From contig NZ_BCWD01000003.1 of assembly GCF_001592085.1 (NCBI RefSeq), forward strand, positions 1 to 64,000: 64,000 bases of DNA. The letters run 5' to 3'. The position numbers were made by a program, and so were the translations under genes. The notes beneath the pieces are model-generated. The model saw nothing but the letters and a program-made list of their open reading frames with translations. It did not search any database and was not told the DNA's origin. The stretch is from Levilactobacillus senmaizukei DSM 21775 = NBRC 103853. GTDB taxonomy: Bacteria > Bacillota > Bacilli > Lactobacillales > Lactobacillaceae. Positions 1-14,025 of the stretch are shown one piece after another. Position 1 is the stretch's first letter. The number at the start of each line of letters is the position of its first letter.

Positions 1-763
1 GTCTGAATCCGAAGCAGCATCTGAATCAGAAGAACAATCTGAATCAGAAGACAATTCCGAATCAGAAGATAATTCCGATTCAGACAGTGGAAGTGAAGGC
101 TCAGATGGTTCTGACTCCGACAGTGAATCTGAATCGGGCAGTGAATCAGAGTCCAACAGTAACAATACAGGTGGCTCTGGCAGCAACTCTGGTTCTGACG
201 CTAACTCAGGATCAGAAGGTGCAACCGACTCTGAATCTGATGGTTCCGAAGAAAATTCGGAATCTGACGGCGGAAATAACGCTAATTCATCTGATTCTTC
301 TTCAACTTCAACCGGTGACAAGGGCAAGGGCTCCGGGAACTCGTCCTCAACGGGTACCGGTTCCTCGTCAGCGTCCGGCAGCAATGGCACTGGTAGCGTA
401 ACGGCAACGAACCTGTCATACGGTGGTAGCAATGCAACGCCAACTTCAGCATCGACAGTTGACCTTACAGCTGATAACAACGATGCTGCAGTAGTGGATG
501 ATACTGGCAACGATTCATCTGACGACAAAGACAAGTCAGATGATAAGTCCAGCGATTCAAGCAAGAGTTCTCTTGCAAAGGGTGGCGATGGTGACCAAAT
601 TGTTGGCGATAAGAACAGTGAAGATACTAGTTCTCCAACAATCTTGAGCTCTATTGCAGCAGCAATTGCCGCCGTTACTGGTGGGTCATGGCTCTTCCTC
701 TTTGGTAAGCGTCGTAAGAAAGACGCGGACCAAGAGACAGACGATGACAATCGTCGCAAATAG
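1..763 (+). CDS. Ser/Asp/Glu-repeat surface protein, 3' part only
   Basis: This is the C-terminal end of a large secreted protein whose start lies outside the window; it is in frame from base 2 and shows 253 residues. The first 100 or so are dominated by SE and SD dipeptides, then the composition shifts to Ser/Thr/Gly/Asn and to a Lys/Asp-containing stretch. A hydrophobic segment (bases about 641-703, ending WLFLF) and a charged tail beginning GKRRKK close the protein. This layout is a stalk plus membrane anchor. No LPxTG-like motif is present before the hydrophobic segment, so sortase attachment is not supported. Low-complexity Ser-rich stalks of this type are typical targets of dedicated O-glycosyltransferases, and three lie directly downstream. 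The adhesin or binding part must be upstream. The role as surface stalk is inference from composition. Confidence 0.8.
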   Translation, partial: SESEAASESEEQSESEDNSESEDNSDSDSGSEGSDGSDSDSESESGSESESNSNNTGGSGSNSGSDANSGSEGATDSESDGSEENSESDGGNNANSSDSSSTSTGDKGKGSGNSSSTGTGSSSASGSNGTGSVTATNLSYGGSNATPTSASTVDLTADNNDAAVVDDTGNDSSDDKDKSDDKSSDSSKSSLAKGGDGDQIVGDKNSEDTSSPTILSSIAAAIAAVTGGSWLFLFGKRRKKDADQETDDDNRRK

Positions 764-804
764 CATCAAATTGAAATACAAGTAGGTATGAAATAACGCC
801 TAGC

Positions 805-834
805 GGACCATCACAAGTAAGATTGTGGTGGTTC
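805..834 (+). terminator. Hairpin after the Ser-rich protein gene, possible terminator
   Basis: A perfect 12-bp stem (with G-U pairs; arms 805-816 and 823-834, loop GTAAGA) follows the stop codon by 41 bases. The run of T after it is weak (CTTACAT), so termination may be partial. A second small perfect hairpin (TTGAGAA ggt TTCTCAA, 866-882) lies between this and the next gene. Confidence 0.5.
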
Positions 835-973
835 TTACATAACTTAATTAAAGTTATGACTCAGATTGAGAAGGTTTCTCAAAAAATACTGCTGCTGATT
901 ATCAAATTTTAGGTAGTGATAAGCTGTCTTGATTGATAATGAGCGGTACAATATCAAATGAAAGGGTGGTTTT

Positions 974-1189
974 GTGGTCATTCTGACGTCAATATTTGCC
1001 TATCACAATGTTCAGTTGTTTCTCCGATTAATGATTTATTTCTTAATGTGGTCGTTGGTTTTGGTGTTCAGGTTTTTACACCGTAAGAAGACACGAAAAC
1101 GAATGGATGAACGGACTAAATATATGATGAAACATACTGAAAAAGACAAGGATGGAAAGTACCCTTGGGAAATAAAAGATAATGATTAA
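974..1189 (+). CDS. Small membrane protein between surface protein and glycosyltransferases
   Basis: The gene encodes 71 residues from a GTG start placed 7 bases after AAAGGG (961-966). The first 33 or so residues are hydrophobic and would form one or two membrane passes; the rest is a basic then mixed-charge cytoplasmic tail (RKKTRKRMDERTK, then KDKDGKYPWEIKDND). I recognise no family. It ends 27 bases before the first glycosyltransferase start, so it is probably the first gene of that operon; a TACAAT -10-like hexamer sits at 947-952 without a good -35. A role in anchoring the cytoplasmic glycosyltransferases to the membrane or to the export site would suit the position, but that is inference. 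It could also be a spurious short frame, although the SD, the composition and the fit between neighbours favour a real gene. Confidence 0.6.
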   Translation: MVILTSIFAYHNVQLFLRLMIYFLMWSLVLVFRFLHRKKTRKRMDERTKYMMKHTEKDKDGKYPWEIKDND

Positions 1190-1216
1190 GTCTAGTTGTT
1201 AGATGGGAGTGTCCTG

Positions 1217-2734
1217 ATGTACTATTTCGTGAATGAATATATCTTGCAGAAAAACTCAAGCGTTGAACACACAGCGATGAACCGTGTACGCCTCTTCAAC
1301 CATTTCCAGCGACCGGCTAAGATTGTGACAAAGATCTATGATCGCTTGCTTCATCAAACGTTGACCAATTTTGGGTTAAAAGATGATGATGTGGTTAACA
1401 TGTTTGATTTCTTCCAAGGAACGACCAAAATGGCGGAGACCAAGGTCATGCACACTGATGACTTGCGATTACCAGTTGAGTCAGAAGTGAGTGTTGGCGC
1501 CAACTTTAGCGGAGTCTCCGTGGGTGATATTCCAACTGGAAATGTTGGTTTTATCCCCGGGACCATTGGTCGGGTCTTCTATCAGGAGTTCGTGGATAGT
1601 CAGGGCAATGCCATTGAGACCGACCTGTGGGATTGGCGTGGATTTAAGTCAGCAACGCAGTATTTTGGTCAAGATGGTAAACTAATTATGCAACGGTATT
1701 ACCAGCCTGATGGTCAGATCGTTCTTGAGGAGTACTTTGCACCAGACACCAATGGTAATCCGTTGGCTTCCAGAATGATCTTGAAGGATTATCAGGGGAA
1801 GGGTGATTTGTTTTTCCAAAATCCAGACGGCTTGTTTGAGTTCTTTTTAGCCGAATTAAGTAAACAAGATCCTGAGACCACCACATTTATCAGCGATCGA
1901 CCAGGTACAGGTGTTCGGCCGTTGTTGGCTTTGAATGATTCGTCACGTAAGTATGTGTATGTTCCGATTAATCATGTGGTCAAACAGGATGACCCGATTT
2001 ATGGCCAGCTCGATGGCTTCTTGCAACCCGCATTCGACCACTTCAATTCGTTTGATGGATTCATTACAGCCACACCTCAACAGGCAGCCGATTTGAAGCA
2101 ACGCTTTCCTAAGGCTAATGTAACGTCGATTTCAGTGGTTTCTACGACACCGTTAGTGAAAGGTGAAACGAGTTTGAAACCAATGGCACAACGGTTGGCA
2201 GGTAGCTTACTCTATGTGGGGCGGATCTCTGCTGACAAGCAGATTGAACAGTTGATTCGAATGTTTGCCATTATTAAGCAACGGGTTCCGCATGCAATAT
2301 TTGATCTTTATGGTTATGGGGAGCCAGCATTCATGAAACAAATGACTGACTTGGTGAATGAGTTGCAGCTACAATCGAGTGTGACCCTTAAGGACTACTA
2401 TCCTGATATTGATGGTCAATATGACAACTATCAGGCATTAGTTAACTTGTCCTTTGTTGATGGCGGACCAATGGGTATGCAGGAAGCTATGACTCATGGC
2501 ATTCCTGCCATCAGTACGCCGTTTAACTATGGGCCACAGGATTATATTCAAGATGGCGTTAACGGGTATCTCTGCAAACCAGGAGATACGCTGGCGATGG
2601 CTGATAGGATTGTTGATTTATTCACGGATTCTAAGAAGTTGGCGAAGCTCAGTGAAGGGGCTTATACGACGGCTCACAAGAATTGGACGCGTCAAAAAGT
2701 TTGGAATCGTTGGCAGAAGTTTCTGAAAGATTAG
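1217..2734 (+). CDS. Glycosyltransferase family 4, SdgA/GtfA/TagE-like (first of three)
   Basis: The protein has 505 residues from the ATG at 1217, which follows GGGAG (1205-1209); an upstream in-frame TTG at 1196 has no suitable SD. It starts MYYFVNEYILQKNSS, the N-terminal signature of the TagE/GtfA-like enzymes that add sugars to Ser-rich proteins or teichoic acid. A middle beta-rich extension (about residues 60-290, with repeated YYQPDG/YFAPDTN-like strands) precedes the C-terminal Rossmann half with YVGRISADK near residue 332. The retaining-GT4 EX7E signature is altered: D415-GGPMGMQ-E423, in place of E-GFSLxLL-E in the two paralogues. The basic residues that contact the donor diphosphate (R and K of GRISADK) remain. 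It is likely cytoplasmic and part of a complex with the next two gene products. The donor sugar cannot be told from sequence; UDP-GlcNAc or UDP-Glc is the family norm. Confidence 0.85.
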   Translation: MYYFVNEYILQKNSSVEHTAMNRVRLFNHFQRPAKIVTKIYDRLLHQTLTNFGLKDDDVVNMFDFFQGTTKMAETKVMHTDDLRLPVESEVSVGANFSGVSVGDIPTGNVGFIPGTIGRVFYQEFVDSQGNAIETDLWDWRGFKSATQYFGQDGKLIMQRYYQPDGQIVLEEYFAPDTNGNPLASRMILKDYQGKGDLFFQNPDGLFEFFLAELSKQDPETTTFISDRPGTGVRPLLALNDSSRKYVYVPINHVVKQDDPIYGQLDGFLQPAFDHFNSFDGFITATPQQAADLKQRFPKANVTSISVVSTTPLVKGETSLKPMAQRLAGSLLYVGRISADKQIEQLIRMFAIIKQRVPHAIFDLYGYGEPAFMKQMTDLVNELQLQSSVTLKDYYPDIDGQYDNYQALVNLSFVDGGPMGMQEAMTHGIPAISTPFNYGPQDYIQDGVNGYLCKPGDTLAMADRIVDLFTDSKKLAKLSEGAYTTAHKNWTRQKVWNRWQKFLKD

Positions 2735-2750
2735 GGGGGTCGATTAGTAA

Positions 2751-4286
2751 ATGTACTACTTCTTGAACGATAATATGCAGTTTTCCAAGTCCGGGATTGA
2801 ACATGCGGAGATTAAACGGCTCCACTTATTCCAGAAGAATCACGTTCCAGCAAAGATTGTGACACGAATGTTTACGATGGATTTGACAGAAGTCCTCGAA
2901 CAGGCTGGCATCAATCGAACAAATTTTGTTAATTTATTTGAATATTTTTGTGGCTCTACGGGTGGTGATCGGCATTCGTTTAGTATGAATGATATTTCGC
3001 TGCCTGCGAACACGACGCAAACTCGTAAGGATAATCAGGTTCAGGTCTTTGCTCAAGGTAAGATGCTAATGATTATCTATCTTCGCGAGAATAGTAATGA
3101 AATTCACAATATTCAGTACTTTGATGTCAATGGTCGGACCTTGAAAATGTCCTGGTGGGATATTCGGGGCTTCAAATGTCTTGAACAACTCTTCGACTGG
3201 GGTGGCAAGATTGTGGCTGAACAATACTTTGGTCCGGACGGTCAGGTTCATGTCGAGAAATGCCACTTGTTGAATCGGGCAGGTAAGGAACATCTGACGT
3301 GGCGAGTGCTTAACTATCGTGGTCAAAATTGGGTGTTTAATGGAATGAATGCGCTGACACGATTCTTTTACGATGAATTGAACGATACCGGCGAGAAGAA
3401 TGTTTATATTTGTGACCGGACGGTGGAATGTGATTGGGCGTTGTTTAACATGAAGACGCCAGCCTTTAAGGTTTTGCATCTCCATAACGACCACGTTGCT
3501 GATCCAAGTGACATGATTCACTCGCCCTTGAATAATAATTATCAAAATGCGTTAATGAATTGGGATCAATGGGATGCCGTGATTTCGGCGACGCCCGAGC
3601 AAAGTCAAGATGTGGAGGACCGGTTTGGCACGGCCATCCCAGCCTTTACTATTCCGGTTGGCTATGTGACCGATGAAGAGTTAGCAATGACCCAGCAGCC
3701 GTTTGACCGGCGGGAAGTCGGGCGAGTTGTTCATGTTGCTCGACTGGCACCAGAAAAGCAACAGGATCACTCGATTAAAGCCTTTGCCAAGGTTCATGAG
3801 GCTTTCCCAGCCGCACGATTGGAACTATGGGGTTACGCTAATGGGGACATTGATAAGTCGTTGCACCAGCTGGTTTCCACACTTCACTTAGAGGATGTCG
3901 TGCAGTTTAAGGGGTACACACATGACATCAACGCGGTCTATGAGGGTGCTCAAATTGGATTATTGCCTAGTCGGGCTGAAGGTTTTTCACTCATGCTGTT
4001 GGAAGCACAGTCACATGGTTTGCCAATGATTGCTAACGACGTCAAGTATGGTCCTAGTGATATCATCCAGGATGGCGTTAGTGGGGTGCTGACTACCAAT
4101 GGTAATGTCGATGAATTGGCGGCGGCGATCATTGATTTATTGGGTCATCAAGAAAAACTGGCTGAATTTAGCGAGGCCGCTTACCGGAACGTTCATCGCT
4201 ACTCAGAAGAAGCGGTTTTTGAAAAATGGCAAACACTGTTGACCTACTTTGATGAACTATCTAGCCGAAAGGAAGTTGCCCTGTGA
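2751..4286 (+). CDS. Glycosyltransferase family 4, SdgA/GtfA/TagE-like (second of three)
   Basis: The protein has 511 residues from ATG at 2751, preceded by a GGGGGG SD that begins right at the stop of the upstream gene. It starts MYYFLNDNMQFSKSG and has the same architecture: N-terminal acceptor/dimer region, central beta-strand extension (DVNGRTLKMSW, FGPDGQVHVE), and a C-terminal GT4 half. VARLAPEK carries the donor-binding Arg and Lys, and E410-GFSLMLL-E418 is a full EX7E motif. It is therefore expected to be catalytically active. Such proteins are often annotated poly(glycerol-phosphate) alpha-glucosyltransferase, but position beside an SE/SD-repeat protein argues for protein O-glycosylation, as with SdgA/SdgB beside staphylococcal Sdr proteins. 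Its stop codon overlaps the start of the next gene by 4 bases, so the two are translationally coupled. Confidence 0.87.
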   Translation: MYYFLNDNMQFSKSGIEHAEIKRLHLFQKNHVPAKIVTRMFTMDLTEVLEQAGINRTNFVNLFEYFCGSTGGDRHSFSMNDISLPANTTQTRKDNQVQVFAQGKMLMIIYLRENSNEIHNIQYFDVNGRTLKMSWWDIRGFKCLEQLFDWGGKIVAEQYFGPDGQVHVEKCHLLNRAGKEHLTWRVLNYRGQNWVFNGMNALTRFFYDELNDTGEKNVYICDRTVECDWALFNMKTPAFKVLHLHNDHVADPSDMIHSPLNNNYQNALMNWDQWDAVISATPEQSQDVEDRFGTAIPAFTIPVGYVTDEELAMTQQPFDRREVGRVVHVARLAPEKQQDHSIKAFAKVHEAFPAARLELWGYANGDIDKSLHQLVSTLHLEDVVQFKGYTHDINAVYEGAQIGLLPSRAEGFSLMLLEAQSHGLPMIANDVKYGPSDIIQDGVSGVLTTNGNVDELAAAIIDLLGHQEKLAEFSEAAYRNVHRYSEEAVFEKWQTLLTYFDELSSRKEVAL

Positions 4287-5785
4287 ATTACTTTATCGAT
4301 GAAAACCTTGGAAGTAAATTAACCGGGATCGAAAAGGCTCAGATCAACCGGCTCCACCTTTTTGAAAAAGGGGGGCTTCCCGCTCGAGGGGTCATCATGC
4401 ATTACAACACGCAGTTGCACCTTTACGCGGATTCATTCGGCGTGCACGGCCGTTACTTCTCTATGTATGATTTCTTCCAGGGCACCAAGGATGATGAAGC
4501 GGTGGTCAACCGTGGCTGGATTGATTACTGGGAGAATAAGTGTCATTTCCGAGTGCAATACTTACCCAAGACCACCGATGTTCGGATTCACGATGGGGAA
4601 ACATTCCGGATGTATGCCCACTTTATGGATAAGGACTATCAAATCTTAGATTACATTAATTACTTTGATAAGCGACATGTGAAGACAATGCGGGAGATCT
4701 ATGATACACGTGGCTTTTGCAGTCAGATCGTCTATCTGACGGAGAAGCAAAAGGTTGCCTCGAAGGTTTATCTGAATCGTCAAGGTGAACGGGTCATGGA
4801 AGACCTCTACGATTCCTCCCCAGATCTGGAATCTAAATGGACTCAGACGATCGTCAGAAATTTTCGCGGTCGGGATTACATTTTCGATTCGCAGATGGAA
4901 CTGCGAACATTCTTCTTCAATCAACTGTATGAAGACGGTGACCTATATATTAGTGATCGCAATCTGAAGTTGGCTGAACCATTGGACAAGACGGATGACC
5001 GGGTCAAGATTTGTGGTGTGATTCACAGTACGCATGCACAGAAGCAATCGGACGTGATGAATTCACCAATCAAGACGCATTATCGGTTCATGATTGAGCA
5101 TCCGGACCATTTTTCGAAGATTATTTGTTCTACCGATTACCAGCGACGAGATCTGGTGAACCGTTTTCCAGATTTGAAGGACAAGTTTGTGGCAATCCCA
5201 GTGGGGTTCACAACGCCGGTTAAGATTGACCCGAGCAAGCGGTTGACGAACCGAGTGATGTGTGTCGCTCGATTCTCGCCCGAAAAGCAAATTATGCAGC
5301 AAGCAGAGGTTATTAAGCGCTTGGTACCAGAGTTTCCTGATGTTGAATTACATTTGTTTGGCTATGGAAAAGGCGAGAAGGCCCTTCGTGATTTTGTCAA
5401 AGAAAACCATTTAGAAAAAAATATCATTTTCCGTGGTTTCTTGACAGATCTTAGTGAAGAATATCAAAAGGGGACGGTTTCCTTGCTAACCAGTATTGAA
5501 GAGGGCTTCTCTTTAGCGACACTGGAAGCAGAAAACTATGGTGTGCCAGTCATTAGTTATGACATTCGCTATGGGCCTCGTGAAATTATTGACGATAACG
5601 TTAATGGCTTCTTGATCAAGCCGAATGATCAGGACGCGTTATACGAGCGATTACGTCGAGTCTTACGTTCGCCAAAGTTACAACAAACTTTGAGTGCTGA
5701 GAGTATTAAATTAGCCAAGCGGTTCTCAGAAGAGGCCATCTTGCAACGATGGGAAAATGTTGTGAACGATGTATTAGCAAATTAA
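4283..5785 (+). CDS. Glycosyltransferase family 4, SdgA/GtfA/TagE-like (third of three)
   Basis: The protein has 500 residues and starts at a GTG that overlaps the preceding TGA (GTGA, 4283-4286), with AAAGG 11 bases upstream. Its N-terminus MNYFIDENLGSKLTGIEKAQ is close to that of SdgA/SdgB-type glycosyltransferases. The central extension (YLNRQGERVMEDLY) and the C-terminal GT4 half (VARFSPEK; E407-GFSLATL-E415) are intact, so activity is expected. It is the last gene of the operon and is followed by a strong terminator. Three tandem paralogues suggest either stepwise building of a short glycan, with a priming enzyme and extenders, or a hetero-oligomer in which one member only binds the acceptor. 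No asp, secA2 or secY2 gene follows, so any accessory Sec genes would have to be upstream of the window. Confidence 0.87.
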   Translation: MNYFIDENLGSKLTGIEKAQINRLHLFEKGGLPARGVIMHYNTQLHLYADSFGVHGRYFSMYDFFQGTKDDEAVVNRGWIDYWENKCHFRVQYLPKTTDVRIHDGETFRMYAHFMDKDYQILDYINYFDKRHVKTMREIYDTRGFCSQIVYLTEKQKVASKVYLNRQGERVMEDLYDSSPDLESKWTQTIVRNFRGRDYIFDSQMELRTFFFNQLYEDGDLYISDRNLKLAEPLDKTDDRVKICGVIHSTHAQKQSDVMNSPIKTHYRFMIEHPDHFSKIICSTDYQRRDLVNRFPDLKDKFVAIPVGFTTPVKIDPSKRLTNRVMCVARFSPEKQIMQQAEVIKRLVPEFPDVELHLFGYGKGEKALRDFVKENHLEKNIIFRGFLTDLSEEYQKGTVSLLTSIEEGFSLATLEAENYGVPVISYDIRYGPREIIDDNVNGFLIKPNDQDALYERLRRVLRSPKLQQTLSAESIKLAKRFSEEAILQRWENVVNDVLAN

Positions 5786-5796
5786 TCGGATCGAAA

Positions 5797-5825
5797 AAAG
5801 CCTCGACAATTTTGTCGAGGCTTTT
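5797..5825. terminator. Bidirectional terminator between glycosyltransferase operon and cutC
   Basis: A 13-bp stem built on AAAAGCCTCGACA and TGTCGAGGCTTTT carries A and T tracts on both sides, so it can end the plus-strand glycosyltransferase transcript and the convergent cutC transcript. Confidence 0.85.
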
Positions 5826-5831
5826 GCTGGC

Positions 5832-6446
5832 TTAAGCTTGAGGATGGAACACCAGGTTGAGTCCTAGCTTGGTGGCCACCGTCTTCGTTTCCGCAACGGT
5901 TAAGTTGGCTGGAATCAAAGTTAAGCCGACTTTTTGCGCGAGTTGATGAGTTGTCAATAGGTGGTTCGCCTCATTGTCGCTACTCAAGAGGTAATCGAAG
6001 CCTTGGTCGGCCAACCAGTTGAGGGCTTGCTCGCGGTGCTCAAGGGGGATAGCGTCGTAAGCCGTGCTGAAGGTTAAGGTCATTCCACCCGCGGCGGCAA
6101 TGATCAGCTGGAGCCCTTCCACGTCAAGAGTATGGTTGGCCGTCAAGGCGCCCAGAATCACGCCATCAACCCCCAATTGTTGAGCCTCGAGCAGATCGGC
6201 TTCCATGATCTTGAGCTCGACGTCGTTGTAGATGGCTTGGCCACCACGAGGAGCAATAACTAGGTCGAGGCTAACTTGGTGTTCGTGAGCGTAACGGACG
6301 GCCTCAGCCATGACCCCCTTGCTGACGGTGGTACCACCCGCGGCGAGGTTATCAGCTAAAGCGATTCGTTTGTGACCGGCCTGGATGTTAGCAGCCAAGT
6401 CCGTGTAATTTTCAATTAAGGGTTCTGTTAAGAGCAAAGTGGTCAT
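5832..6446 (-). CDS. cutC: CutC family protein (copper homeostasis)
   Basis: The 204-residue protein is a compact TIM-barrel CutC. It contains IALADNLAAGGTTVSKG, APRGGQAIYND, LKIMEADLLEAQQLG and DGVILGALTANHTLDVE, the conserved strands and loops of the family. CutC has been linked to copper tolerance in enterococci and E. coli, though its biochemical activity is unsettled. Length fits short Firmicute CutC proteins. The start is slightly uncertain: AAAGG abuts the ATG with almost no spacing, whereas the TTG at codon 4 would have a spacing of 9; the ATG is kept because it is the conventional choice. It is a single-gene unit on the minus strand, convergent with the glycosyltransferase operon and divergent from the exporter gene. 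Confidence 0.88.
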   Translation of the reverse strand: MTTLLLTEPLIENYTDLAANIQAGHKRIALADNLAAGGTTVSKGVMAEAVRYAHEHQVSLDLVIAPRGGQAIYNDVELKIMEADLLEAQQLGVDGVILGALTANHTLDVEGLQLIIAAAGGMTLTFSTAYDAIPLEHREQALNWLADQGFDYLLSSDNEANHLLTTHQLAQKVGLTLIPANLTVAETKTVATKLGLNLVFHPQA

Positions 6447-7694: not shown

Positions 7695-8535
7695 TCAAGC
7701 ACGTCAGTTCCTGCAGACCCGGCCACATCTTTTCCGTTGCCCGGTTTGTCAAGAACCCTATGAACAGGTCGTTGACCGGAGCCTTGTTTGTCCTAATGGA
7801 CATAGCGTCGATGTCTCTAAGAAGGGCACCTTGTATTTCATGCAGCGAGCGGTGGCCAGTGAGTACGATGATGCCATGTTGGCTGCTCGCCGGCGGATGT
7901 TGCAGGCGGGACTCTTTGCGGGCATCACGGATGCCTTTGTTGCTAAGATGCCGGCGACCGCCCAAACAATTCTAGATGTTGGCTGTGGGGAAGGGACTCC
8001 CTTAAACGATGTGCTGACCAAGCGGAAAAATCAGGAGGATGTCGCGGTGGGCTTTGACTTATCCAAGCCCGGGATTAATCTGGCGACACAGTTGGAGAAT
8101 TCAGCCTTCTTTTGTGTGGCTGATTTGGCCCAAATGCCGTTCGCAGATGGCCAATTCACGACGATCCTGGATTTATTTTCGCCGTCTGCTTACCAAGAAT
8201 TTAATCGGGTGCTGGCGCCGGATGGGCAATTACTGAAGGTTATTCCTAACAGTGACTATCTAATTGAGTTGCGTCAGGCGATTTTTCCTGCCGATAGTGC
8301 CCATGCTACCTATGATAATGGGAAGGTGCTGGGCCTATTCCAAGAACATTATCCTAATGCCACGGCGGAACGCATTCGTTACCAGGTCCCGGTCTCAGCA
8401 GAACGATTCGCGGATTTGATGCTGATGACGCCCATGCACTGGGGTGCTACCCCCGAACGATTGGCCGAGGTTAAGGCCCATCCATTTACCGAAATTACGG
8501 TTGATGTGACTCTGCTGACGGCACAAGGACATTAA
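7681..8535 (+). CDS. rlmA: 23S rRNA (guanine-N1)-methyltransferase, RlmA/TlrB type
   Basis: The 284-residue protein begins with a zinc-binding treble: C20, C23, C37 and H41 in FRCPVCQEPY and LVCPNGHSVD, followed by SAM motif I ILDVGCGEG (residues 97-105). This pairing is diagnostic for RlmA, which methylates N1 of a guanine in hairpin 35 of 23S rRNA (G748 in the Gram-positive RlmA(II) branch, G745 in the Gram-negative one) and can influence macrolide/tylosin sensitivity. The ATG at 7681 follows a GGGGG SD; an in-frame ATG at 7669 overlaps that SD and is rejected. It shares its first 14 bases with the end of the exporter gene. Confidence 0.88.
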   Translation: MKKIDQARQFLQTRPHLFRCPVCQEPYEQVVDRSLVCPNGHSVDVSKKGTLYFMQRAVASEYDDAMLAARRRMLQAGLFAGITDAFVAKMPATAQTILDVGCGEGTPLNDVLTKRKNQEDVAVGFDLSKPGINLATQLENSAFFCVADLAQMPFADGQFTTILDLFSPSAYQEFNRVLAPDGQLLKVIPNSDYLIELRQAIFPADSAHATYDNGKVLGLFQEHYPNATAERIRYQVPVSAERFADLMLMTPMHWGATPERLAEVKAHPFTEITVDVTLLTAQGH

Positions 8536-8566
8536 GTAAAACGTTTAAGAATCTTATGAAAAAGGC

Positions 8567-8595
8567 TTGATCGGCTGACAGGGCAGTGTTATATT
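8567..8595 (+). promoter_or_regulatory. Sigma-A promoter for a short terminated transcript
   Basis: TTGATC (8567-8572) and TATATT (8590-8595) are separated by exactly 17 bases. The expected start is near 8602, and the transcript would meet the terminator ending at 8710. Confidence 0.65.
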
Positions 8596-8601
8596 GACCA
8601 A

Positions 8602-8710
8602 TGAGAAATCGTTTGGCGGTCGACATCAGCTAGTAACTGTTAGCGGCTGACAAGTAGCACTTCACTAGAGTAGTTCCTCGCCGTGCCCACACCGAGGAGC
8701 TGCTTTTTTT
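8602..8710 (+). ncRNA. Candidate small RNA or terminated leader upstream of trmL
   Basis: Between rlmA and trmL lies a promoter-to-terminator unit of about 110 bases with no credible coding frame. The 3' end is a textbook terminator: 12-bp stem AGTAGTTCCTCG/CGAGGAGCTGCT (8669-8680 and 8693-8704), 12-base loop, then seven T. An imperfect hairpin (CAGC...GCTG, about 8627-8650) lies in the 5' half. A second good promoter (TTGTCA-18-TATAAT, 8736-8765) starts trmL after the terminator, so the short transcript is not needed as the trmL leader. I do not recognise it as a known riboswitch, T-box, 6S or tmRNA. It may be a trans-acting small RNA; function is unknown. Confidence 0.55.
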
Positions 8711-8735
8711 GTGTCGTCCAAGCCACCGTCTGAAC

Positions 8736-8765
8736 TTGTCAAAGGCCCGGCGGAACGGCTATAAT
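8736..8765 (+). promoter_or_regulatory. Promoter of trmL
   Basis: TTGTCA (8736-8741) and TATAAT (8760-8765) with an 18-base spacer, 47 bases before the trmL start codon. Confidence 0.75.
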
Positions 8766-8812
8766 GAGTGAACAGAACGGCAACTTGCCGAACGGAACGG
8801 AGAGACTAATAG

Positions 8813-9325
8813 ATGACGAATCATATTGCTTTATTTGAACCCTTATTTCCTGCTAATACGGGAAACATTGCCCGGACTTGTGCCGGTACAGACACCATTT
8901 TGGATCTCATCAAGCCTTTAGGGTTTTCAGTCGATGATGCCCACCTCAAACGGGCCGGATTGGATTATTGGGACAAGGTGGATGTTCGCTATCACGAAAA
9001 TCTACCAGCTTTCCTGGAAACTGTCACGGATCCCAAGCAACTTTACTTAGTCTCCAAGTTTGCGGAACGGGATTACACGGAGCCTGATTATCAAGTTAAT
9101 GATAACGATCATTTCTTCTTGTTTGGTAAGGAAACCACGGGATTACCAGAACCCTTCATGCGGGCGCACATGGAACAGTGTATTCGAATTCCACAAGATG
9201 ACAGCCACATCCGGGCACTTAACTTATCCAATAGCGCTGCAATCGTGATTTACGAGGTCTTGCGGCAACAATCATTCTTGAATTTGGAACGGATTCACCG
9301 TTACCCACACGACAAATTAAAATAG
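8813..9325 (+). CDS. trmL: tRNA (cytidine/uridine-34 2'-O)-methyltransferase TrmL
   Basis: A 170-residue SPOUT-fold methyltransferase. The N-terminal ALFEPLFPANTGNIARTC, central FLFGKETTGLP and C-terminal IPQDDSHIRALNLSNSAAI are the three conserved SPOUT motifs that form the SAM-binding trefoil knot. TrmL dimers methylate the 2'-OH of the wobble base in tRNA-Leu isoacceptors, supporting decoding. The length matches the minimal, domain-free TrmL family. The ATG at 8813 has ACGGAGAG upstream and its own promoter. The gene lies 23 bases before ftsK and may be co-transcribed with it. Confidence 0.93.
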   Translation: MTNHIALFEPLFPANTGNIARTCAGTDTILDLIKPLGFSVDDAHLKRAGLDYWDKVDVRYHENLPAFLETVTDPKQLYLVSKFAERDYTEPDYQVNDNDHFFLFGKETTGLPEPFMRAHMEQCIRIPQDDSHIRALNLSNSAAIVIYEVLRQQSFLNLERIHRYPHDKLK

Positions 9326-9348
9326 GCTAACGAAAGGGGGAGCAGTCG

Positions 9349-11718
9349 GTGGCAACAAAACAAAAAACAACCCGACGGCGTCCAGCACGGCGTAGAACAC
9401 CTGCCAGGAAATCACCCCGTCGGAAACCGCCATTTCCATACACTAGTAATATTTTAGGCTTGATCCTGGTGGCCTTAGCGGGTCTAGGAGCATTTAATCT
9501 TGGATTCATTGGGACATTATGTGCCAACTTGGTTCGCTTGGTAGTGGGGGATACTTATGAGTTTGGCTTGATTCTGATCGGCGCTCTGGGTGTCGCGCTG
9601 ACATTTACTGGAACTTGGCCCCACTTGAAACGTCACTACCTTGTCGGCAGCACGCTAATCTACGGTGGTTGGCTCTTGTGGGTGACGGCCACTCATTTTA
9701 TTCAGGTGGACCAACATCGGCAATTCATTGCCACCATTTGGCATAATAGTTTAGCGGATCTCTTTACAGGCGGCTTGAATGCGCAATTAGGTGGTGGGCT
9801 GGTAGGGGCTTTGGAACTGAGCATTGTCGCTTGGCTCATTGCTCTGATCGGTGCCCAGATTGCAGCATGGCTGGTCATATTAGTGGGAATCATCGTGTTC
9901 TTTCAGATCCCCTTTGCCAGGATTGAACAGGCCTTGCAGGTGACTTGGCAGGGCCTCACCAAGGGGATGCAAGCTAGCGGTTCGGTGATTAAGCGTGGAA
10001 GCGAGCTCGCCAAAGAAAAACACGCCGCACGTCAACAGGAGGCGTCGTCCGCACCGATCAAACCGATTGCGGCCTCAGCAGCACCGGTTTCGGCGGCGAC
10101 AAGTCAGCCACAGCCGGCCAGTGCCGCAACCGAAGAGCCCAGCTACCATATTACGGTCGCGGCTAACGAAGTACCGAAGCCCCGATCGGCTTCAGCACCT
10201 GGACCAGAGTCGGCTAGTGAGGCAAAGGAGACTGACTTGTTGGCCAATAGCACGCCAGTGGACCCCAATTATAAGTTGCCCACGGCAGACCTATTGAAAC
10301 AAGTTCCACCGACGGATCAGACGGCCGAAGTCAATGCGATTGATGCCAACACTAAGATCCTGAAGCAGACGTTGGATAGTTTTGGTGTGGATGCTGAGGT
10401 TAAGAACGTTAGCCTAGGACCCTCCGTCACCGAATATGAGCTACATCCCGCAATCGGCGTCAAGGTTTCACGAATCGTTAATCTTGCCGATGATTTGGCT
10501 TTGGCATTGGCCGCCAAGGGTATTCGGATCCAGGCGCCAATTCCCGGAAAATCATTAATTGGGATTGAAGTCCCTAACAAGAAGGTTTCGACAGTTGCAT
10601 TTCGAGATGTCATTGAGGCTCAGCCAGTTCATCCGGATCGGCCACTTGAGGTACCGCTTGGTCGCAATGTCACGGGACAGGTTGTCAGCATGGACCTGAC
10701 GAAGATGCCGCATTTGCTGATTGCCGGTGCCACGGGTAGCGGGAAGTCGGTAGCCATCAATGATATTATCACCAGTATCTTGATGAACGCCCGTCCCGAC
10801 CAAGTAAAGTTGATGCTAATCGATCCTAAAAAAGTTGAACTGAGTGTGTACAACGGCATTCCACATCTATTGACGCCAGTGGTTTCCGAACCTAAAAAGG
10901 CGGCTCGGGCTTTGCAAAAGGTGGTTGCTGAAATGGAGCGGCGTTACGAGTTATTCTCTCAACTCGGTCAACGAAAAATTTCTGGGTATAATGCTATGGT
11001 CCAAAAAGCCAATCAAGCCGATAATCAGGCGCGGCCAACCCTGCCATATATTATCGTGGTTGTCGATGAATTGGCTGACTTGATGATGACGGTCTCCAAT
11101 GAAGTTGAAGATGCCATTATCCGCTTAGCTCAGATGGGCCGAGCAGCCGGGGTGCATATGATTCTGGCTACTCAACGGCCATCGGTAGACGTCATTACCG
11201 GGCTGATTAAGGCTAACGTACCTTCTCGAATTGCTTTTGCGGTTTCCAGTGGGATTGATTCCCGGACCATTCTCGATACGAATGGGGCGGAAAAACTGTT
11301 AGGCCGTGGAGATATGCTATACCAACCCGTCGATGCTAATTCCCCGGTGCGGGTCCAAGGGGCCTTTATACCGGACGAGGATGTTAGCAATGTGGTGGAC
11401 TTCATCAAGGCAGAGCAAGCGGCCGATTACGATGAAGATATGATGGTGAGTGATGAGGAAGTTCAGCAAGAAGCGGCAGGGGACAGTGATGATGAGCTGT
11501 TCGATGACGCGTTAAACTTTGTGGTTGACCAACAGAAGGCTAGCACCTCGCTCTTACAGCGGCGATTCCGGATTGGATATAACCGGGCCGCCCGGATTAT
11601 GGATGATTTGGAGCAGCGAGGCTATATTGGCCCGCAAGAGGGCAGTAAGCCACGTCAAGTTTATAAGCAGCCCACCAGTGAGCCAATTGATGACCAGGGT
11701 AGTCATCAATCCGAGTAG
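9349..11718 (+). CDS. ftsK: DNA translocase FtsK/SpoIIIE
   Basis: The 789-residue protein starts at GTG 9349 after GGGGGAG. It has a very basic N-terminus ([14 protein letters not shown]), four membrane helices (about residues 30-185), a Ser/Ala/Pro/Gln linker (about 220-320), and the RecA-like motor with Walker A GATGSGKS (around 459) and Walker [14 protein letters not shown] (around 567). The C-terminal winged-helix gamma domain ([25 protein letters not shown]) reads KOPS/SRS sequences. FtsK pumps chromosome ends through the closing septum and activates terminus dimer resolution. The length is typical for Firmicutes. The Ser/Ala linker is of the type reported as O-hexosaminylated in the L. 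plantarum homologue FtsK1 (recalled, not checked). Confidence 0.95.
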
Positions 11719-13080: not shown

Positions 13081-14025
13081 ATGGAAGACTTTCATCATGT
13101 TACGGTCCTGCTAAAAGAAGCCGTTGCCGGTTTAGCCATCAAGCCAACGGGAATCTATGTTGACTGCACTCTCGGTGGCGGTGGTCATAGTCAGCGAATT
13201 TTGGAACAACTGACAACGGGTCACCTGTACGCCTTTGACCAGGACCAAACAGCCATTACCTATAACGAAGAACATTTGAAACCATACTTAGATGCCGGGC
13301 AGCTCACGTTTATCAAGGCGAACTTCCGCGATATTCAAGCTGAATTAGCCCAACGTGGGGTCGACCAGGTAGACGGCGTGCTCTACGACCTGGGAGTCTC
13401 TTCACCGCAATTTGATGAGGCCAATCGGGGATTCAGTTATCAGCACGACGCTCCACTGGATATGCGGATGGATCAAGACCAAAAATTGACTGCGTGGATT
13501 GTGGTTAATGAATGGGAATTTAACGATCTAATGCGAATATTCCGGCGCTACGGTGAGGAAAAGTTTGCCAAGCCAATTGCCAGAGCAATCGAACGGCATC
13601 GGGCCACAGCGCCCATCGATACGACCGGCCAGCTGGTGGAGATCATCAAAGAAGGCATCCCAGCTGCCGCTAGACGGCATGGAGGCCATCCCGCTAAGAA
13701 GGTCTTCCAAGCCATCCGGATTGCCGTTAACGATGAACTAGGAGCCTTAGAAGACTCCCTAGAACAAGCCATCGACCTGATTGGGTTGAACGGCCGAGTC
13801 AGTGTCATTACCTTCCAGTCGCTTGAAGACCGGCTGGTCAAAACCATGTTCCGTGAACATTCATCCTTACCGGAATTGCCCCATGGGATCCCGGTAATCC
13901 CTGATGATTTGCAGCCAGATTATCAGTTAGTCAATCGTAAACCGATCTTGCCCTCTGAGGCGGAATTAGCGGTCAATCATCGGGCACACAGTGCTAAGTT
14001 GAGAATTTTAGAAAAAATTAAGTAG
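13081..14025 (+). CDS. rsmH: 16S rRNA (cytosine-1402-N4)-methyltransferase RsmH
   Basis: The 314-residue protein opens [12 protein letters not shown] and carries the SAM motif [11 protein letters not shown], then [22 protein letters not shown] and LDMRMD, all RsmH hallmarks. It methylates N4 of C1402 in the ribosomal P site, together with RsmI. The ATG at 13081 is preceded by AAGGGAG with 8-base spacing; an upstream in-frame GTG at 13075 is too near the SD. The gene is the second of the dcw operon, 20 bases after mraZ. Length is normal and no key residue is missing. Confidence 0.95.

Follow-up and report, generated by a model that had tools for sequence, protein, structure and literature searches.

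The first 64,000 nucleotides (nt) of contig C3 in the 2.2-Mb draft genome of Levilactobacillus senmaizukei DSM 21775, hereafter the window, open with an acidic serine-repeat surface protein gene followed by a small-protein gene and three tandem glycosyltransferase genes (GT1, GT2 and GT3). This locus is a real, functional-looking protein glycosylation cassette and a composite of two known enzyme lineages, one represented by GT1 and GT2 and the other by GT3. We consider it probable that the cassette carries out cytoplasmic O-glycosylation of a Sec-exported, membrane-anchored Ser-Glu (SE)-repeat surface protein, a reading that builds on the observed gene order, clade membership, active-site conservation, lack of Asp1 and SecA2 matches over cut-off and pattern of gene retention and loss among relatives. 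The features of the locus are the following.

2..763, + strand: C-terminal part of the Ser/Glu/Asp-repeat surface protein, 253 amino acids (aa), frame open at the contig end
974..1189, + strand: 71-aa small protein, by inspection a membrane protein with one hydrophobic stretch; KYPWE motif at the C-terminus
1217..2734, + strand: GT1, glycosyltransferase family 4 (GT4)-type with altered donor site; orthologous to the first of the two paired genes in L. plantarum
2751..4286, + strand: GT2, GT4 enzyme whose donor site is complete; orthologous to the second of these two L. plantarum genes
4283..5785, + strand: GT3, Sdg-clade GT4 with complete donor site and GTG start
~5796..5825, + strand: terminator-like hairpin (sequence and fold) between GT3 and a converging gene at 5832-6446 (- strand)

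Two enzyme lineages in one gene run

The Glycos_transf_1 domain (PF00534) was found in all three enzymes (GT1, 82.9 bits; GT2, 113.1 bits; GT3, 113.8 bits), in agreement with an earlier note on this DNA that had described an acidic serine-repeat stalk protein followed by three tandem GT4 genes and a terminator. That note had also proposed scoring the enzymes against profiles of the SdgA, SdgB and GtfA type, and all three did score on these NCBIfam models, each below the curated cut-offs. GT3 reached 500.4 bits for SdgB, 437.1 for SdgA and 126 for the accessory-Sec GtfA; the corresponding values were 272, 279 and 151 bits for GT2 and 183, 218 and 109 bits for GT1. Against the structure of SdgB in the Protein Data Bank (PDB 7ec1), GT3 gave 404 bits, with 40% identity to SdgB over 501 columns, so that the expected Sdg-type member is indeed present. 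In the same comparison SdgB was matched at 149, 203 and 404 bits by GT1, GT2 and GT3, respectively, and TarM chains at 79 to 103 bits.

To place the enzymes, a tree of 58 rows (142 reduced by similarity at ~72%) was built by a quick method with Shimodaira–Hasegawa-like approximate likelihood ratio test (SH-aLRT) support only and no bootstrap, TarM serving as outgroup and as stand-in for TagE. GT1-type and GT2-type branches formed one clade (SH-aLRT 96) that includes the L. plantarum pair. A second, Sdg clade (SH-aLRT 99) united SdgB, enzymes of family f17, which by that company would be staphylococcal, and the GT3 proteins of Lactobacillaceae; GT3 thus grouped with SdgB, apart from both TarM and accessory-Sec GtfA, the latter forming its own clade (SH-aLRT 98). 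A single triplication of an Sdg-type gene was therefore rejected, and with it the earlier description of the enzymes as three paralogues of one type, as GT1/GT2 and GT3 lie in two separate clades. The adjacent pair of L. plantarum EGD-AQ4, which lies beside a Ser-Asp (SD)-repeat protein, is 60% identical to GT1 and 70% to GT2. A plasmid search with GT3 returned no relative nearer than 39.5%.

The nearest named genome among 37 loci is that of L. tangyuanensis, in which GT1 is 92% identical and the gene order is the same. Within the run, the GT2 stop and the GT3 start overlap by 4 nt, and GT1 starts at ATG 1217, the mechanically called open reading frame (ORF) beginning earlier, at TTG 1196. The hairpin after GT3 folds at -21.8 kcal/mol (z -4.9; 0/200 shuffles as good); a simple consensus scan for terminators did not list it, in our view owing to its short run of T. 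A promoter scan was no richer than shuffled sequence (13 hits versus a mean of 12.3, sd 4.0).

Donor-site residues

In SdgB, E406 and H246 are reported to hold N-acetylglucosamine (GlcNAc), and R329, K334 and E414 the nucleotide (PMC8561734). Residues were counted on distinct sequences from the relatives' loci in SdgB numbering, each set including the window's own copy. The window's GT1 carries the substitutions H246>P, E406>D, S409>P and G15>S; its D415 occupies the place of the first E of the EX7E motif in SdgB, which bears out the earlier remark that one enzyme has an altered EX7E. This alteration is a property of the type: H246 and E406 were kept in 0/35 GT1-type sequences (P in 35; D in 34 and N in 1), with retention of R329 in 35/35, E414 in 35/35 and K334 in 32/35 (R in 3). 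All five residues were kept in 35/35 GT2-type sequences. Among GT3-type sequences H246, R329, K334 and E406 were present in 32/32 and E414 in 31/32, the window's GT3 having all five. Accessory-Sec GtfB is said to be a partner subunit (PMC5796085), and the altered donor site of GT1 suggests a similar partner role.

The repeat protein and its export

The frame at 2-763 contains 68 Ser, 34 Asp and 21 Glu in 253 aa, and its repeat is chiefly Ser-Glu rather than Ser-Asp. After the repeat come a linker, one hydrophobic segment, the motif GKRRKK and an acidic tail. The earlier note had asked for the sequence upstream, to see the full surface protein and any accessory Sec genes. The protein is cut because contig C3 begins within it. 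Contig C9 starts with a 1575-aa frame that has a KxYKxGKxW signal and runs off the contig in ...SESEAASESEAASE, and SESEAASESEAASE is also the opening motif of the window's stalk frame. The C9 frame matches the N-terminal parts of relatives' repeat proteins (the first 53 aa at up to 91%) and is probably the N-terminal part of the same gene. The assembly breaks within the SESEAA repeat both in this genome (starts of C9 and C3) and in L. tangyuanensis (start of L056).

LPXTG anchoring of the Sdr/MSCRAMM type was rejected, Gram_pos_anchor scoring 15.2 bits against a cut-off of 20 and the stalk tail having no LPxT motif. The tails of eight SD- or Thr-Asp (TD)-repeat proteins of relatives likewise have no LPXTG. 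Among the SE-type proteins of relatives, those at the start of L068, L070 and L090 end in LPQTG and that of L081 does not; the former three represent a second kind of SE- or Ser-Thr (ST)-repeat protein, LPQTG-anchored and adjoined by GT3-type genes and the small gene. On the opposite strand (L036:1-2334, minus), one frame across the SESEAA repeat gives SDSDAA and SD repeats read SE-rich, and it is conceivable from this reading that an inversion within the repeat could convert SD to SE.

The search for an accessory Sec system covered Asp1 and SecA2, leaving aside Asp2, Asp3 and SecY2. Genome-wide, Asp1 gave a best match of 47.7 bits against a cut-off of 136.1, lying in GT3 itself, and the SecA2 search gave a single SecA-like match, at 907 bits under a cut-off of 930, which is presumably the housekeeping SecA. 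An accessory Sec system for serine-rich repeat proteins (SRRPs) was rejected on these grounds, and the earlier statement that no accessory Sec genes follow held for the two genes searched, in the genome as well as in the window. In the genus, Asp1 was above cut-off in 6 of 24 genomes searched; in L141 and L142 it lies at another locus.

Distribution among relatives

GT1 orthologues (53-100% identity) occur in 32 of the 35 genomes of the genus, the window's own among them; of the remaining three, one is incomplete and two have weak matches only. In 20 enlarged loci, the GT1-GT2 pair was accompanied either by a GT3-type gene (9/20) or by a cassette of four genes (10/20, for example L037:12904-17466) that encode a small HAD-like protein, an NTP-transferase/APH protein, a nucleotidyltransferase and a ~600-aa unknown protein. 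The two occurred together in 0/20 loci, and neither was present in 1/20 (L. brevis ATCC 14869). At a guess, the four-gene cassette may add an activated, CDP-type substituent.

In L. brevis ATCC 14869 (L069), GT1-GT2 is intact, GT3 is reduced to a 75-aa stub (13082-13309), the gene for a 546-aa protein considered below is disrupted (8138-9725), both at a place where relatives have the whole cassette, and no repeat protein was found in the 21.5-kb stretch examined. From this one lineage, GT1-GT2 would appear to be general and GT3 dedicated to the repeat. In L149, L150 and L151 the GT3-type gene lies apart from GT1-GT2, and in L149 and L150 that copy is beside its own SD-repeat protein. The wide occurrence of GT1 and the persistence of the pair in L. 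brevis, where the site has no repeat protein, make it doubtful that the locus is self-contained, as the earlier note had called it.

The KYPWE small protein was found in 22 of 37 named loci and is thus a conserved family, so that a protein specific to this genome was rejected; searches of Pfam and NCBIfam with the small ORF gave only matches under cut-offs. In the genus, its gene lies before GT1 or near a GT3-type gene, and in two Lactiplantibacillus loci after GT2. A weak relative (E 2.7e-6) from a distant family lies at ~6957-7112 of L189, between an Ala-Asp-repeat protein and a 546-aa gene.

Proposed mechanism and alternatives

In the mechanism that we favour, GT1 and GT2 would assemble into a heteromeric transferase resembling GtfA/GtfB of L. 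plantarum, with GT2 as the catalytic subunit, probably using UDP-GlcNAc as donor, and GT1, its donor site altered, as the putative acceptor-binding partner. The pair would act on several surface proteins, and GT3, as an SdgB/GtfD-type enzyme, would be dedicated to the acidic repeat, transferring GlcNAc onto repeat serines with Glu in the place of Asp. A possible role of the 71-aa protein is to hold the enzymes at the membrane, in which the repeat protein is presumably anchored. In L. plantarum, gtfA (lp_1299) and gtfB (printed as lp_1311) are listed under 'surface protein glycosylation' (PMC4919987), and both genes are reported to be needed for protein O-GlcNAc (PMC5796085).

Several points weigh against this mechanism. 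GT3 is below the curated cut-off of 800 bits for SdgB and SdgA, for which reason we term it Sdg-like rather than SdgB, and the tree holds TarM in place of Bacillus TagE. GT1 may not be inactive, as its nucleotide-binding residues are kept. In 10 of the 20 relatives' loci an SD/TD-repeat protein occurs with GT1-GT2 and no GT3 nearby; GT3 is therefore not needed wherever an acidic repeat exists. From neighbourhood and locus numbers we infer that the EGD-AQ4 pair is the tested gtfA/gtfB, yet gtfB printed as lp_1311 would not be adjacent to lp_1299, and EGD-AQ4 holds a second, less similar pair. Last, deletion of four other putative transferases of L. plantarum, one of them a DUF1975 protein, is reported to have caused no lectin change (PMC5796085), and these four may include the GT3-type gene of that species (L140), a result that lowers our confidence in the mechanism slightly.

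The alternative that fares best, although we consider it unlikely, is that all three enzymes would act serially on the SE protein only, GT1-GT2 priming with one GlcNAc and GT3 extending it. The operon-like run with its 4-nt overlap of GT2 and GT3 is consistent with such a series, as is the report that di-GlcNAc on the Ser-Asp-repeat (SDR) proteins of S. aureus requires both SdgB and SdgA (PMC3794999); against it stand the 32 of 35 genus genomes with GT1, the GT1-GT2 pair kept by L. brevis with no repeat protein at the site, and the three loci in which the GT3-type gene is separate from GT1-GT2, twice beside its own SD-repeat protein. A still less probable reading has GT1 fully catalytic with another donor sugar, which would give a hetero-glycan; its retained R329, E414 and (32/35, otherwise R) K334 would fit this role, but the sugar-holding residues of SdgB, H246 and E406 (PMC8561734), are replaced in 35/35 sequences. 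We regard it as highly improbable that the enzymes glycosylate wall teichoic acid in the manner of TagE or TarM, with the repeat protein a mere neighbour: the enzyme class is shared with TarM, and the two other PF00534 matches among the five in the genome lie outside the locus in frames that are shorter, at 396 and 344 aa, so that a further long enzyme of the class is not apparent, but TarM (79 to 103 bits) scores below SdgB for each of the three enzymes, the linkage to acidic-repeat proteins recurs, the L. plantarum pair is reported to act on proteins (PMC5796085), and TarM, standing in for TagE, fell outside all three clades on a long branch instead of clustering with the window's enzymes, which was one part of the outcome by which the earlier note had proposed to refute protein glycosylation.

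A 546-aa gene linked to aspartate repeats

In 17 relatives' loci, the SD/TD-repeat protein is followed by a 546-aa gene (for example, L037:7937-9574); three more SD proteins (L072, L073 and the second in L081) run off the stretch examined. The gene is absent at the site in five named SE-type loci, in L040 (also SE type) and in the window, and it has no match genome-wide in the genomes of the window, L. tangyuanensis, L. enshiensis and L. fujinensis. Three of the seven SE-type genomes have it elsewhere, in two cases (L226 and L227) beside an alternating-Asp protein. By length and position, the 546-aa family would correspond to GtfC of S. aureus.

Across the order, the gene was found in 43 of 295 genomes, and its upstream neighbour had alternating x-Asp runs in 21 of 22 stretches read, the longest run spanning 64-740 residues and x being mostly Ala, also Thr and Ser. 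In the genus, an x-Asp run lies upstream in 23 of 25 genomes with the gene. A plasmid collection held 54 records with it, of which nine were opened: seven of eight annotated partners had runs (52-698 residues), and the run of the ninth record is in a frame without annotation. As background, alternating-Asp runs occurred in 84 of 795 ORFs of at least 250 aa, a set that includes the partner proteins and so is not a clean control. The association of the family with x-Asp-repeat proteins extends over Lactobacillales, Listeria, Enterococcus, staphylococci and some Gram-negatives (L188, L189, L245, L250, L255 and others), and includes even Ala-Asp repeats with hardly any Ser to glycosylate. In S. 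haemolyticus a 538-aa homologue adjoins pls, with a Mur ligase gene after it, and the two are fused in Agrobacterium; one fused member matches Mur ligase models over cut-offs.

The predicted fold of the 546-aa protein (predicted local distance difference test score, pLDDT, 78.5) is an alpha/alpha barrel similar to those of cellobiose 2-epimerase and the GH76 family (best E 6.5e-6, template modelling (TM) score 0.41), with no glycosyltransferase among the 50 structure matches listed. By sequence the family has no match in the PDB, and in Pfam and NCBIfam none or only matches under cut-offs.

A more speculative proposal, which we consider less likely than not, is that acidic repeats receive their modification from two arms that can be separated, one for Ser (GtfA/GtfB and Sdg enzymes) and one for Asp (the 546-aa barrel, which follows alternating Asp with Ser, Thr or Ala as the other residue and at times comes with a Mur ligase), the Asp arm having been lost by the window's lineage. 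The link between the 546-aa gene and Asp is opposed by L. andaensis (L229), in which no alternating-Asp run was found in the 1.5-kb flank of the gene, by one order-level upstream stretch (L205) that gave no ORF, by the A. baumannii partner, the one of the eight annotated plasmid partners without a run, and by the S. aureus work, which assigns gtfC to Ser glycosylation (PMC5230774). If the proposal is true, the window's lineage, with its change from SD to SE and its Ser arm kept, is a natural test of the split. The absence of the gtfC-type gene here also draws attention to a family whose published role in Pls glycosylation may need re-examination.

Comparison with known systems

The locus adds a novel variation to an established kind of system. 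The earlier note had taken the arrangement as new; lp_1303a of L. plantarum with three adjacent transferase genes (PMC3271238) and pls-gtfC-gtfD (PMC5230774) had already been published. No publication title among the matches listed concerned the combination of GT1-GT2 and GT3 in Levilactobacillus.

The lp_1303a protein was described in 2011 as very large and membrane-anchored, with hundreds of SD repeats, and its glycosylation was considered possible in view of three putative glycosyl transferase genes next to it (PMC3271238). Like the lp_1303a/gtfA/gtfB locus, the window has a presumably membrane-anchored acidic Ser-repeat protein, the transferase pair (60/70% identity) and a small KYPWE protein; it differs in its SE instead of SD repeat, in lacking the 546-aa gene, in the addition of GT3 to the run and in the position of the small gene, before GT1 and not after GT2.

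In S. aureus, gtfC and gtfD downstream of pls were reported in 2017 to place N-acetylhexosamine on the SD-repeat serines of Pls, gtfD alone giving a first, weak glycosylation in strain COL (PMC5230774). The window resembles this locus in having an acidic repeat protein beside a transferase of ~500 aa (GtfD has 503 aa; PMC5230774), and GtfD itself, judging from plasmid loci, would be Sdg-like. By contrast, the window has no gtfC-type 546-aa gene and possesses a GtfA/GtfB-like pair, and Pls is LPXTG-anchored. Compared with S. aureus SdgA/SdgB, GT3 is in the SdgB clade at 40% identity with a complete donor site, but scores under the NCBIfam cut-off and neighbours an SE-rich protein, not an Sdr protein.

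With accessory Sec SRRP systems, the locus shares a Ser-rich repeat protein, the KxYKxGKxW signal and paired transferases, one of them apparently non-catalytic, whereas its genome has no Asp1 or SecA2 over cut-off and GT1-GT2 lie in another clade; in L. plantarum, one report states, no SRRP had been found (PMC6973325). The transferase lineages of L. plantarum GtfA/GtfB and staphylococcal SdgB/GtfD, which have been studied apart, thus meet here next to a single acidic-repeat protein. No accessory Sec system is evident in this lactobacillus, a harmless food organism in which the roles of the two lineages can be separated.

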